DNA from: a virus
Reading direction: 5' to 3' (one strand)
IMG/VR virus record: IMGVR_UViG_3300031576_000204
Span: 1 to 34,729 of that record
DNA length: 34,729 nt
Program-made: the position numbers and the translations under genes
The notes under the pieces: generated by a model
The model's input: the letters and a program-made list of their open reading frames with translations, nothing else
Database searches by the model: none
What the model was told of the DNA's origin: nothing
Shown: positions 1,568 to 34,729 of the stretch, piece after piece
Layout of the letters: the number at the start of each line of letters is the position of its first letter
How positions within the stretch are numbered: the first letter of the stretch is position 1

Positions 1568-1598
1568 AAAGGCAGGTTAACTACCTGCCTTTTTTTTT
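1568..1598 (+). terminator. Intrinsic terminator T1
   Basis: AAAGGCAGGT (1568-1577) pairs with ACCTGCCTTT (1583-1592) around TAACT, followed by a long T-run. The same hairpin, loop included, recurs at 2462-2492 after the next cassette. Confidence 0.9.
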
Positions 1599-1613
1599 AC
1601 AACGAAAAAAAGC

Positions 1614-1641
1614 TTGACAAATAACACAACAATAATAACAT
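1614..1641 (+). promoter_or_regulatory. Early promoter P3
   Basis: TTGACA 1614-1619 and TAACAT 1636-1641 with a 16-base spacer. It starts 16 bases after terminator T1 and drives the repeat protein at 1703. Confidence 0.55.
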
Positions 1642-1651
1642 ATACAATATA

Positions 1652-1674
1652 AATAATGATATCGTATCATTATC
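1652..1674. promoter_or_regulatory. Palindromic operator O3
   Basis: AATAATGATA, spacer TCG, TATCATTATC. One outer base differs from O1 and O2; the right arm is unchanged. Confidence 0.6.
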
Positions 1675-1702
1675 ATTTTATATTTATTTTTGAGAGAAAA
1701 TT

Positions 1703-2446
1703 ATGAAATTAGAAAATCTAACGCAGGAGCAGGAAGCGCAAATGGAAAAATACAAGCAAGATTATCTTGCTTATGGAAGATGCACTGACCGGATTGACAA
1801 AGCATCAACGGAAAAAGCCATAAATGATATTTACGTGGAACTGGGAAAACCCGAACCATTAATAATTTACTGCAAATCAATAATGGCAATGTATTTGACT
1901 GTTAATGTCGAGCGGAATATCGGGGAAAACATCGTGCAAAATATCTGGCAAAATATCGGGCAAAATATCTGGGAAAATCTCAGGGAAAATATCGTGCAAA
2001 ATATCGAGGAAAATATCGAGCGAAATATCTGGCAAAATATCAGGCAAAATATCGGGCGAAATATCGAGGAAAATATCGAGCAAAATATCTGGCAAAATAT
2101 CGAGGAAAATATCAGGCGAAATATCGGGCAAAATCTCGAGGACACACTGTGGGGCCAACATTCAGCGCACTGGATTTGTTACTACATTGTTTTCAGAGAT
2201 ATTTTAAAATTGGAGTACAATGAAAAAGATGAAAGATTATTAAATAATTTGGATATTTTGGTAAAATCATGTTGCTGGTGGATACCATTTGACAATGTAT
2301 GTATAGTATCTGACAGGCCGAGCGAATTAAAATTAGACGCACAAGGTAGACTGCATAGTGACAAAGATATGTGCATAAAATTTGTTGACGGGTGGGGATT
2401 CCACGCGATTCATGGTGTAAGAGTGCCGGAGGAAATGATCGCATAA
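1703..2446 (+). CDS. Tetrapeptide-repeat DUF6745-like protein, short copy
   Basis: 247 residues in three parts. Residues 1-67 are a helical head (LTQEQEAQMEKYKQDYLAYG). Residues 68-147 are 20 consecutive four-residue units of form N-[I/V/L]-x-x, where the third residue is W, G, E, R or V and the fourth is Q, E, R or D. Residues 148-247 match what I know of the DUF6745 domain (WGQHSAHW, CCWWIPF, RPSELKLD, GWGFHAIHGVRVPE). Compared with the paralogue at 11301 it lacks about 115 C-terminal residues and ends just after the HGVRVPE segment. It has its own promoter, operator and terminator. The head and C-terminal part are nearly identical at DNA level to the paralogue, with mostly third-base changes. 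The function is unknown; the repeat probably forms an elongated regular structure. Confidence 0.85.
   Translation: MKLENLTQEQEAQMEKYKQDYLAYGRCTDRIDKASTEKAINDIYVELGKPEPLIIYCKSIMAMYLTVNVERNIGENIVQNIWQNIGQNIWENLRENIVQNIEENIERNIWQNIRQNIGRNIEENIEQNIWQNIEENIRRNIGQNLEDTLWGQHSAHWICYYIVFRDILKLEYNEKDERLLNNLDILVKSCCWWIPFDNVCIVSDRPSELKLDAQGRLHSDKDMCIKFVDGWGFHAIHGVRVPEEMIA
1904..2143 (+). repeat. 12-bp tandem repeat array, 20 units
   Basis: Twenty units of consensus AATATC-NNG-NNA encode the N-I-x-x tetrapeptides. The first six bases are nearly fixed, while codon three varies among TGG, GGG, GAG, AGG and GTG, and codon four among CAA, GAA and CGA. No stop codon occurs in the other frames of the array, which explains the long overlapping frames here. 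Confidence 0.95.
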
Positions 2447-2461
2447 TTCCCCCCTCTTTAT

Positions 2462-2492
2462 AAAGGCAGGTTAACTACCTGCCTTTTTTTTT
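2462..2492 (+). terminator. Intrinsic terminator T2
   Basis: Same AAAGGCAGGT / ACCTGCCTTT hairpin as T1 with a T-run, 15 bases after the stop of the repeat protein. The sequence between stop and hairpin is also related to that at T1. Confidence 0.9.
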
Positions 2493-11011: not shown

Positions 11012-11314
11012 ATGATGTACAGACAAGGCGATGTGCTGATAGTGTCTTGTGATACTATTCCTAAAACAGCAAAAGAATTAAAGACCGCAGATGCTAAAAT
11101 ATTAGCATACAGCGAAAGTACAGGACATAAACATCAAATTGTTTCTGACAACGTTGTTGTCCTGACAGATGAGGATAGAAAATATCTGTCTTTAATTTCA
11201 GACTGTGAATTAAAACATGAAAAACATGGTGTAATTAATTTGCCAAAACGAAATTATCAAGTGATAATCCAACGGCAATATACACCAAAAGGAGTGCAAA
11301 ATGTCAGGGATTAA
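11012..11314 (+). CDS. 'RQGDVL' small conserved protein, partner of the DUF6745-like gene
   Basis: 100 residues. Conserved-looking features are YRQGDVLIV at the N-terminus, STGHKHQI in the middle, and HEKHGVINLPKRNYQV then QRQYTPKG...VRD at the end. I recall a widespread uncharacterised family with the same landmarks (RQGDVL, TGHxH, HE.H, QREYTP) that often stands beside DUF6745 genes; this is from memory. The histidines H38, H40, H70 and H73 could form a metal site, in a predicted small beta barrel. The gene overlaps the next by 14 bases, so the two are probably made together. AAGGATTAAATAT precedes the ATG. Confidence 0.75.
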   Translation: MMYRQGDVLIVSCDTIPKTAKELKTADAKILAYSESTGHKHQIVSDNVVVLTDEDRKYLSLISDCELKHEKHGVINLPKRNYQVIIQRQYTPKGVQNVRD

Positions 11315-12614
11315 AATAAATAATTTAACACAGGAACAGGAAATCTTGATAGAAAAGTACAAGCAAGATTATCTTGCTTATGGAAGATGCACTGACCGGA
11401 TTGACAAAGCATCAACGGAAAAAGCCATAAATGATATTTATGCAGAACTTGGAAAGCCTACACCATTAATAATTTACTCACAATCAATAATGGAAATGTA
11501 TTTAACTGCTAATATCGAGCGAAATCTCGAGGAAAATATCGAGCGAAATATCAGGCAAAATATCGAGGAAAATATCGAGCAAAATATCTGGCAAAATATC
11601 GAGGAACATATCAGACGAAATATCGGGCAAAATATCAAGCAAAATATCAGGGAAAATATCAGGCAAAATATCGGGCAAAATATCGAGCAAAATATCAGGC
11701 GAAATATCTGGCAAAATATCTGGCAAAATATCGAGCAAAATATCGAGGAAAATATCGGGCAAAATATCTGGCAAAATATCGGGCGAAATATCTGGCAAAA
11801 TATCGAGCAAAATATCAGGCAAAATATCTGGCGAAATATCGGGCAAAATATCGAGGAAAATATCGAGCGAAATATCTGGCGAAATATTAAGCGAAATATC
11901 GGGCAAAATGTTGAGCAAAATATCTGGCAAAATATCGAGGGAAATATCAAGCAAAATATCTGGCAAAATGTTGAGCAAACACTGTGGGGCCAACATTCAG
12001 CGCACTGGATTTGTTATTACATTATTTTCAGAGATATTTTAAAATTGAAATACAATGAAAAAGATGAAAGATTATTAAATAATTTGGATATTTTGGTAAA
12101 ATCATGTTGCTGGTGGATACCATTTGATAATATATGTATAGTGTCTGATAGACCAAGTGAATTAAAATTAGACGAACAAGGCAGATTGCACGATGAAAAA
12201 GATATGTGCATTAAATTTGTTGACGGATGGGGATTCCACGCGATTCATGGCGTGAGAGTGCCAGAATATATTGTGAAAAACCCCGAACAAATTACACCGC
12301 AAAAAATAGACGCAGAAGAGAATGTTGAGATCCGCAGGATAATGATTGAACGATATGGACTGGAGAAATATTTTAAAGATTCAAAAGCTGATAAAATTCA
12401 CACAGATGATTTTGGCACTTTGTACAAAATTGAGCAAAAAGACGATGAACCGATAATGATGGTTAAAGTTGTAAATTCAACGCCTGAAGCAGACGGACAT
12501 TACAAAGATTATTTAATTCGTGTTCCGCCTGAAATGACGACAGCGCATCAAGCTGTTGCGTGGACTTTCGGCTATGATAAAGCGGAAAATTATAAACCTG
12601 CCATAGAAACATAA
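11301..12614 (+). CDS. Tetrapeptide-repeat DUF6745-like protein, long copy
   Basis: 437 residues. Head residues 1-70 match the copy at 1703. Residues 71-226 are 39 tetrapeptides of form N-I-x-x. Residues 227-437 are a complete DUF6745-like region: WGQHSAHWICYY, SCCWWIPFDN, RPSELKLDEQGRLH, GWGFHAIHGVRVPE, then IDAEENVEIRRIMIERYG, and a final part (TLYKIEQKDDEPIMMVKVVN; AHQAVAWTFGYD) absent from the short copy. It is last in the early arm, with AAAGGAG before its ATG. The function of the family is unknown to me. The long regular repeat suggests an extended scaffold or binding surface; the conserved C-terminal part may be the active or recognition domain. Confidence 0.85.
   Translation: MSGIKINNLTQEQEILIEKYKQDYLAYGRCTDRIDKASTEKAINDIYAELGKPTPLIIYSQSIMEMYLTANIERNLEENIERNIRQNIEENIEQNIWQNIEEHIRRNIGQNIKQNIRENIRQNIGQNIEQNIRRNIWQNIWQNIEQNIEENIGQNIWQNIGRNIWQNIEQNIRQNIWRNIGQNIEENIERNIWRNIKRNIGQNVEQNIWQNIEGNIKQNIWQNVEQTLWGQHSAHWICYYIIFRDILKLKYNEKDERLLNNLDILVKSCCWWIPFDNICIVSDRPSELKLDEQGRLHDEKDMCIKFVDGWGFHAIHGVRVPEYIVKNPEQITPQKIDAEENVEIRRIMIERYGLEKYFKDSKADKIHTDDFGTLYKIEQKDDEPIMMVKVVNSTPEADGHYKDYLIRVPPEMTTAHQAVAWTFGYDKAENYKPAIET
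11511..11978 (+). repeat. 12-bp tandem repeat array, 39 units
   Basis: Same AATATC-NNG-NNA consensus as at 1904-2143, almost twice as long. Six consecutive units at 11559-11630 match six units of the short array (2060-2131) with two base differences in 72, but at a different place in the array. Confidence 0.95.
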
Positions 12615-34602: not shown

Positions 34603-34729
34603 CTCCCCAAGTGCGTTGGCGGCGCATTTATCTATATATATGTCTCAGATTATATATACAGACACATACACACACACACACACACACACTACACACAACC
34701 ACACACTTACACACACATACTAAAAATAT
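34603..34729. repeat. 127-bp terminal direct repeat (right copy)
   Basis: Exact second copy of 1-127. Joining the two copies places the early-arm leader directly after the iteron region at 34425-34570, giving one continuous control region. Confidence 0.9.

Follow-up and report, generated by a model that had tools for sequence, protein, structure and literature searches.

An RQGDVL-DUF6745 gene pair of phages and cells, and a tetrapeptide array that may serve phages as a retunable interaction surface

The gp54 protein of mycobacteriophage Tweety carries a tetrapeptide array whose pattern of variation was called consistent with selection for variation by its discoverers (PMC2884959). According to reviews, gaining or losing repeats lets Tweety mutants escape the defence of Phrann or MichelleMyBell prophages (PMC9262239, PMC8549241). 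Variable repeats have also been described for VR2 of the Bordetella phage BMP-1 gene bbp36, in which the unit is 24 bp, the repeat number varies by isolate and the gene is non-essential (PMC2884959). When the Tweety gp54 array was reanalysed here, it comprised 48 units of the form GCC GCA [GGG/TGG/CAG] [AGC/TAC], and in the gp54 relatives of Ochi17 and AlpineSix the units were rearranged while the gene ends, as displayed, were unchanged. In the literature searched, DUF6745 is not mentioned, and the STM4011-4015 gene cluster is given no function. We compared these systems with a pair of overlapping genes encoding an RQGDVL-family protein and a DUF6745 repeat protein in a phage genome.

The gene pair and its truncated second copy

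The window, meaning the whole stretch of 34,729 nucleotides that was analysed, is a virus record whose two ends carry the same repeat, at 56-115 and at 34658-34717 (Tandem Repeats Finder). A first-pass annotation, made from the letters alone, had proposed a two-gene unit at 11012-12614 that ends its arm of the genome. Both ORFs were found at exactly these coordinates, with an overlap of 14 bp (Table 1), and the pair is indeed the final unit of the plus-strand arm. Genes from 12633 onward lie on the minus strand and include those for terminase, portal and the major head protein. The plus-strand arm also codes for a Cas4-like exonuclease and for primase and helicase homologues, and we infer early expression of the pair solely from its map position. 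The overlap of the two genes makes translational coupling likely; the motif AAGGAG (11289-11294) lies 6 bases ahead of the ATG of the DUF6745 gene. No near relatives of the window phage were found with the DUF6745 core or the helicase as query, and every match to its terminase was below 60% identity. A link between the pair and the adjacent DNA methylase was considered and rejected, as one set of 66 viral loci had no methylase homologue and another of 80 had two. Nine early-arm proteins were scanned by Pfam; no radical SAM or ATP-grasp protein was detected among them, nor any radical-SAM/hydrolase gene of the STM4011-4015 type.

Table 1. Features of the RQGDVL-DUF6745 pair and of the second copy in the window.
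Feature	Position	Strand	Description
RQGDVL protein P0001, 100 aa	11012..11314	+	Small, beta-rich; TGHxH and HExH motifs, C-terminus V-x-D-COOH
DUF6745 repeat protein P0002, 437 aa	11301..12614	+	ORF; Pfam PF20530
Gene overlap, 14 bp	11301..11314	+	Putative translational coupling
Helical head of P0002, residues 1-70	11301..11510	+	AF2 pLDDT 84-96 over residues 11-70; common to array-less cellular relatives
Array of P0002, 39 NIxx units, residues 71-226	11511..11978	+	AAT ATC [GAG/TGG/GGG/AGG/AAG] [CAA/CGA/GAA]
Conserved DUF6745 core of P0002	11979..12611	+	GQHxAxW ... HGVRVP ... NxExRR ... VNSTPEPDG ... RVPP
Truncated paralogue	1703..2446	+	Head, 20-unit array (1904-2143) and post-array segment; last ~112 core residues missing
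Paralogue cassette	1594..2486	+	Promoter-like site 1614-1641, ORF, terminator 2462-2486; self-contained; consensus matches only

The upstream protein, P0001, has no Pfam family and matches phrog_27831 (E 8e-14). In an alignment of 50 sequences it carried the marks of the RQGDVL family, namely the RQGDVL start, TGHxH, HExH and a C-terminal V-x-D. Its AF2 model is beta-rich with a mean pLDDT of 78.3, and PADLOC gave no match for it.

The downstream protein, P0002, had been described as 39 N-I-x-x units between a head and a conserved C-terminal domain, a description that held to the unit. The array comprises 39.0 units of period 4, with Asn first in 38 and Ile second in 36 of the 39, and Tandem Repeats Finder returned 39.1 copies of 12 bp (score 495). 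Residues 228-437 match Pfam DUF6745 (PF20530) with an E-value of 7.5e-59 and 198.9 bits against a cut-off of 27 bits, over 198 of the 206 profile positions. AF2 modelled the core with a pLDDT of about 79-95 across most of residues 241-430, and the array as helical with low confidence. Phage matches to baseplate hub proteins were discarded because only the low-complexity array of P0002 was matched, and Pfam matches to GerPC and Gp5_trimer_C, confined to the same region, were discarded likewise. Foldseek and VIA-align found a significant PDB relative for neither AF2 model, profile searches of PDB sequences returned nothing relevant for P0001 or P0002, and the sole good BFVD match in the structure search was an unnamed phage protein of similar length. 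The best PADLOC E-value for P0002 was only 0.026, to a low-complexity Cas2 fragment, and no toxin family was among the matches of the pair in Pfam, phrog and PADLOC profile searches.

The first-pass annotation had also reported a second copy of the repeat protein. Such a copy exists, but it is truncated and has 20 units. Its head and post-array segment are 79-83% identical to P0002, and its DUF6745 match of 54 bits spans only positions 5-94 of the 206 in the profile, with the C-terminal half absent. Compared with P0002, pN/pS was 0.32 in the head and 0.10 in the post-array segment, indicating purifying selection, and the two arrays differ in length (39 versus 20 units) and unit order. The paralogue is bracketed by near-identical intrinsic terminators at 1567-1593 and 2462-2486 (AAAGGCAGGTTAACTACCTGCCTTT), and TTGACA-N16-TAACAT at 1614-1641 is a consensus match for its putative promoter. 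A TTGACA-type site follows each of the two terminators, as if small cassettes shared a common module.

RQGDVL and DUF6745 are genetic partners in phages and cells

The neighbourhoods of both families were surveyed by pattern-seeded scans in which the best 80 loci were kept; the viral collection includes fragments, and contig breaks are frequent inside arrays. The RQGDVL profile identified 66 loci in IMG/VR, and DUF6745 adjoined RQGDVL in 31 of the 32 that had at least 1.5 kb on both sides, while most of the less-flanked loci ended within the downstream repeat gene. Among the best 80 RQGDVL loci of bacterial and archaeal genomes, DUF6745 was adjacent in at least 71 of 75 flanked loci, a lower bound since ORFs that overlap were in some cases overlooked by the strict distance rule. 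The scan from the DUF6745 core yielded 181 viral stretches in IMG/VR; in the best 80, which were examined, RQGDVL was present on the same strand in all 37 intact, flanked loci. In PLSDB, RQGDVL occurred in nine plasmid or megareplicon records with DUF6745 close by in 9/9; eight of the nine were recovered by the DUF6745 search, and in the remaining record (D. ficus) the neighbouring gene is DUF6745. Strands agreed in 41/41 viral and 77/77 cellular loci, the gene order was reversed in 11 of 41 phages, and no fusion of the two genes was seen among the loci compared. RQGDVL and DUF6745 thus form a genetic partnership that spans phages, bacteria and one archaeal MAG. The first-pass annotation had described two uncharacterised families adjacent in cells and phages, a pairing it would have called accidental had they rarely been neighbours; the neighbourhood counts strongly support this description.

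Individual phages illustrate the pair. In the M. abscessus prophage prophiGD102-1 it is formed by genes 37-38, and it is missing from related prophages, as cargo would be. In the Manatee Spring siphovirus the pair is in reverse order and the RQGDVL gene is unannotated. The RQGDVL gene at L006:5681-6049, directly downstream of a DUF6745 gene, is unannotated in GenBank MW202476.

The C-terminus of the RQGDVL protein is invariant. The final residue was Asp in 61/61 viral and 76/76 cellular proteins with a readable C-terminus (137/137), and Val stood two residues before it in 135 of the 137. This invariant end implies that the C-terminal carboxylate would have a functional part.

In cells, the pair commonly has further neighbours. 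At least two markers of the STM4011-4015 cluster, which includes radical SAM/HemN-like, sulfatase-like and LRR proteins, were found in 68 of 75 flanked cellular loci (among the best 80, a mainly actinobacterial and Streptomyces-biased sample), and the cluster accompanies the pair in Streptomyces, Nocardia, Methylobacterium and Deinococcus. The D. ficus replicon NZ_CP021083 has a neighbourhood unlike STM4011-4015, the pair being followed by a VWA-domain gene and, farther away, by a glutathionylspermidine-synthase-like gene. Two Obscuribacterales MAGs (G003 and G004) contain 7 and 20 DUF6745 matches, respectively, a large expansion. Most of the Obscuribacterales DUF6745 copies fetched have no RQGDVL alongside, and RQGDVL is therefore not obligatory beside cellular DUF6745. 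The copies that were read have no array, and some have leucine-rich repeats.

Array occurrence, codon usage and unit order

In the best 80 of the 181 viral stretches, an array was present in 40 of 45 intact DUF6745 genes and in 31 of 35 cut by a contig end. It was absent from the other five intact genes and also from Ma-LMM01; since such array-less phage copies exist, the DUF6745 core functions without an array. Cellular DUF6745 proteins have a non-repetitive or leucine-rich middle and no arrays. Three loci listed as bacterial (L080, L085 and L104) have phage-type neighbours as well as arrays and were counted as phage-derived, and an apparent array in a Streptomyces protein (L098) was set aside as a short N-terminal run that is not central. 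The strongest feature of the system, which the first-pass annotation had not noticed, is that phages have added to a cellular protein an array that is hypervariable at fixed codon positions.

The phage arrays follow one codon rule. A unit spans 12 bp, or else 9 bp in proteins that have a different head. The scaffold codons of an array do not change across its 14 to 75 units, and one or two codons vary at the first or second base. Examples are AGC GTC [TGG/AGG/GGG] [GAC/GCC] in L014, GCC ACG [AGG/GAG/TGG/AAG] [GCC/GAC] in L038 and GCG [CGG/CTG] [GAT/GCT] in L035. The scaffold itself varies by phage (NI, SL, SV, QV, QL, NL, AT, AA, AV). Pooled over 35 arrays (34 DUF6745 arrays and Tweety gp54), pN was 0.145 and pS 0.016, a ratio of about 8.9; over 67 arrays, a set that shares some loci with the first, the values were 0.162 and 0.025, a ratio of 6.5. 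pN exceeded pS in 33/35 and 66/67 arrays, and polymorphic sites fell mostly at codon positions 1 and 2 (82 versus 6 in the 35 arrays, 174 versus 20 in the 67). A low pS could by itself come from repeat homogenisation. Third positions are frozen while first and second positions are diverse, and selection for within-array diversity or site-directed mutation is therefore needed. Several variable sites never carry A (G22/C14/T9 in prophiGD102-1, T14/C11/G9 in L028), which would speak against the target of a diversity-generating retroelement, where substitutions are directed at template adenines; this comparison covered variable sites only.

Two loci differ in layout. The cores of L035 and L039 are near-identical at the C-terminus, one protein having a tripeptide head and array and the other a tetrapeptide one, a contrast suggesting that modules may be exchanged. 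At L059:5371-8112, two tandem DUF6745 genes lie behind one RQGDVL gene and contain ~22-residue CPxFxGFPP repeats with no short units.

Unit order was compared between close relatives. L208, on the L014 contig, and L209 share 98.8% DNA identity in their heads and 96.1% in their cores, and their scaffold codons are equal. Their arrays, of 27 and 30 units, had an order LCS of 15, and shuffled arrays gave 15.1 +/- 1.3. Beyond 600 bp upstream of the array the two DNAs did not align, which suggests that the pair is a mobile cassette passed between phages. In L254 and L256 (core identity 91%), array alphabet and length differ, both arrays being cut by contig ends. From these alignments, array order appears to be rewritten much faster than the flanking domains, as shown in one pair of relatives and more weakly in the two copies of the window, with further support from Tweety. 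Across the pooled arrays, unit order was near random, with no excess of identical neighbours (z -0.5). Only lag 7 exceeded shuffles (z 3.1 among 16 lags), lag 14 gave nothing, and spectral analysis showed no convincing peak. Seven units of 4 or 3 residues correspond to whole numbers of heptads. Arrays could be rewritten through recombination that exchanges them wholesale, through many rounds of unequal crossing-over or through directed mutation.

Proposed role and comparison with known systems

By analogy with Tweety, our best explanation, to which we give even chances, is that a host-derived pair has become in phages an interaction protein that is made early and can be retuned rapidly, with counter-defence as its probable task. 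The unit would be a phage-adapted version of a cellular two-protein module, in which a tandem array of 4- or 3-residue units has taken the place of the leucine-rich repeats or non-repetitive middle seen in cellular relatives. RQGDVL and DUF6745 would form a complex, with the V-x-D C-terminus docking on the DUF6745 core. The array would either determine the reach, and the surface for contact, between head and core or act as the contact surface itself. Changes in unit number or order might then retune binding or direct it to a new target; the bound partner would be a rapidly evolving factor of the host or of a prophage, most likely one that belongs to a defence system. Such retuning would parallel the effect of repeat-number changes in Tweety gp54, and the truncated paralogue could be a second copy tuned differently or a donor for recombination. 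Of the functions guessed at in the first-pass annotation, anti-defence gains weight from Tweety gp54, which combines the same array rule with a counter-defence tuned by repeat number. Surface recognition gained no support: no observation here suggests a protein of the virion or the surface, and the replication arm is where the pair sits.

The pair might instead keep a cellular, probably metabolic or protein-modifying role, the array being a flexible spacer whose sequence hardly matters and which is varied by recombination. The STM4011-4015 genes beside cellular relatives in most actinobacterial loci sampled, the glutathionylspermidine-synthase-like gene near the D. ficus pair, the conservation of core and RQGDVL in array-less copies and the low AF2 confidence of the array all fit this reading. 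We consider it unlikely, as a spacer of indifferent sequence should accumulate synonymous variants too, yet third positions are near-frozen while first and second vary, and the scanned early-arm proteins include no radical SAM or ATP-grasp partner. The array could also be a modular recognition surface in which the variable residue of each unit is one letter of a code for a single polymeric ligand, in keeping with the recurrence on unrelated scaffolds of one small set of residues (W, R, G, E, K with D, A, S, Q). Apart from the lag-7 signal, unit order looks random, and close relatives have no order in common, so that a conserved ligand sequence is unlikely; this makes a binding code quite improbable.

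A phage toxin-antitoxin or abortive system would agree with the layout, in which the small gene comes first and is overlapped by the larger one, and with cargo-like presence and absence. It is very improbable given the reversed order in some phages (11/41), the Obscuribacterales copies that mostly lack an adjacent RQGDVL and the failure to match any toxin family. Selection on the array as DNA, for binding or recombination sites with the protein secondary, would explain why the DNA scaffold is strikingly invariant inside each array; even so, scaffolds are entirely different between phages, the unit may be 9 or 12 bp, variation falls where amino acids change and the frame stays open, and we give this reading scarcely any credence.

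A bolder and rather doubtful reading is that phages rewrite arrays by a dedicated route, either recombination from one array to another or mutation directed at one or two of the codons in each unit. Each lineage would then display a freshly randomised heteropolymer on a conserved RQGDVL-DUF6745 chassis, a phage-encoded library adapting to host defences like antigen-receptor repeats, and in cells the radical-SAM cluster or a ligase would act on the invariant terminal Asp of RQGDVL. Until now, the tunable tetrapeptide protein of Tweety has passed for an oddity of a single mycobacteriophage group. The rule that its array obeys is also common, with an unrelated chassis, among DUF6745-coding IMG/VR phages (181 stretches, best 80 examined), which would make array retuning a testable general strategy. 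The two uncharacterised families gain an obligatory partnership and an invariant C-terminus to probe, and a phage module is linked to an unexplained bacterial radical-SAM cluster.

Among known systems, pentapeptide-repeat proteins resemble P0002 in their Asn-hydrophobic-x-x motif and short tandem units. They differ in that their A(D/N)LXX units have period 5, the arrays described here have period 4 or 3 and AF2 gives no beta-helix, and no pentapeptide Pfam match was obtained for the window protein at E up to 1. By its published description, bbp36 VR2 of BMP-1 is alike in its variable repeat number and unlike in its unit, 24 bp versus 12 bp in the window. The cellular members of Pfam DUF6745 have leucine-rich or non-repetitive middles in place of the phage arrays, and the radical-SAM, sulfatase-like and LRR genes of the STM4011-STM4015 cluster were not seen in the window. 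Ma-LMM01, a lytic cyanophage of 162 kb, has adjacent RQGDVL and DUF6745-like genes (gp175-gp174) in the same order as the window, but its gp174 has no array.

The closest likeness is to Tweety gp54. As in the window protein, a 12-bp, tetrapeptide array lies between unique ends; the scaffold is invariant, third codon positions included, and two codons vary at their first and second bases. In the group of Tweety gp54, Che8 gp57 and PMC gp51, copy number differs between relatives (48, 26 and 15), and the Tweety alphabet (G/W/Q and S/Y, with W/R/E/K/G in relatives) overlaps those of the DUF6745 arrays. The window array shares the 12-bp unit, the frozen scaffold and the first- and second-position variation. 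Array change between close relatives with kept flanks was found in L208/L209, and the paralogues of the window differ by 39 versus 20 units. Tweety gp54 has no DUF6745 core, no RQGDVL partner and another head, and a counter-defence role is published for Tweety only; neither a DUF6745 nor an RQGDVL signal was detected in Tweety gp53-gp55, and gp53 and gp54 gave no Pfam match. Since gp54 is unrelated outside the array, function is transferred by analogy: the window pair may work like Tweety gp54 in its array, yet it is not a member of the gp54 family.
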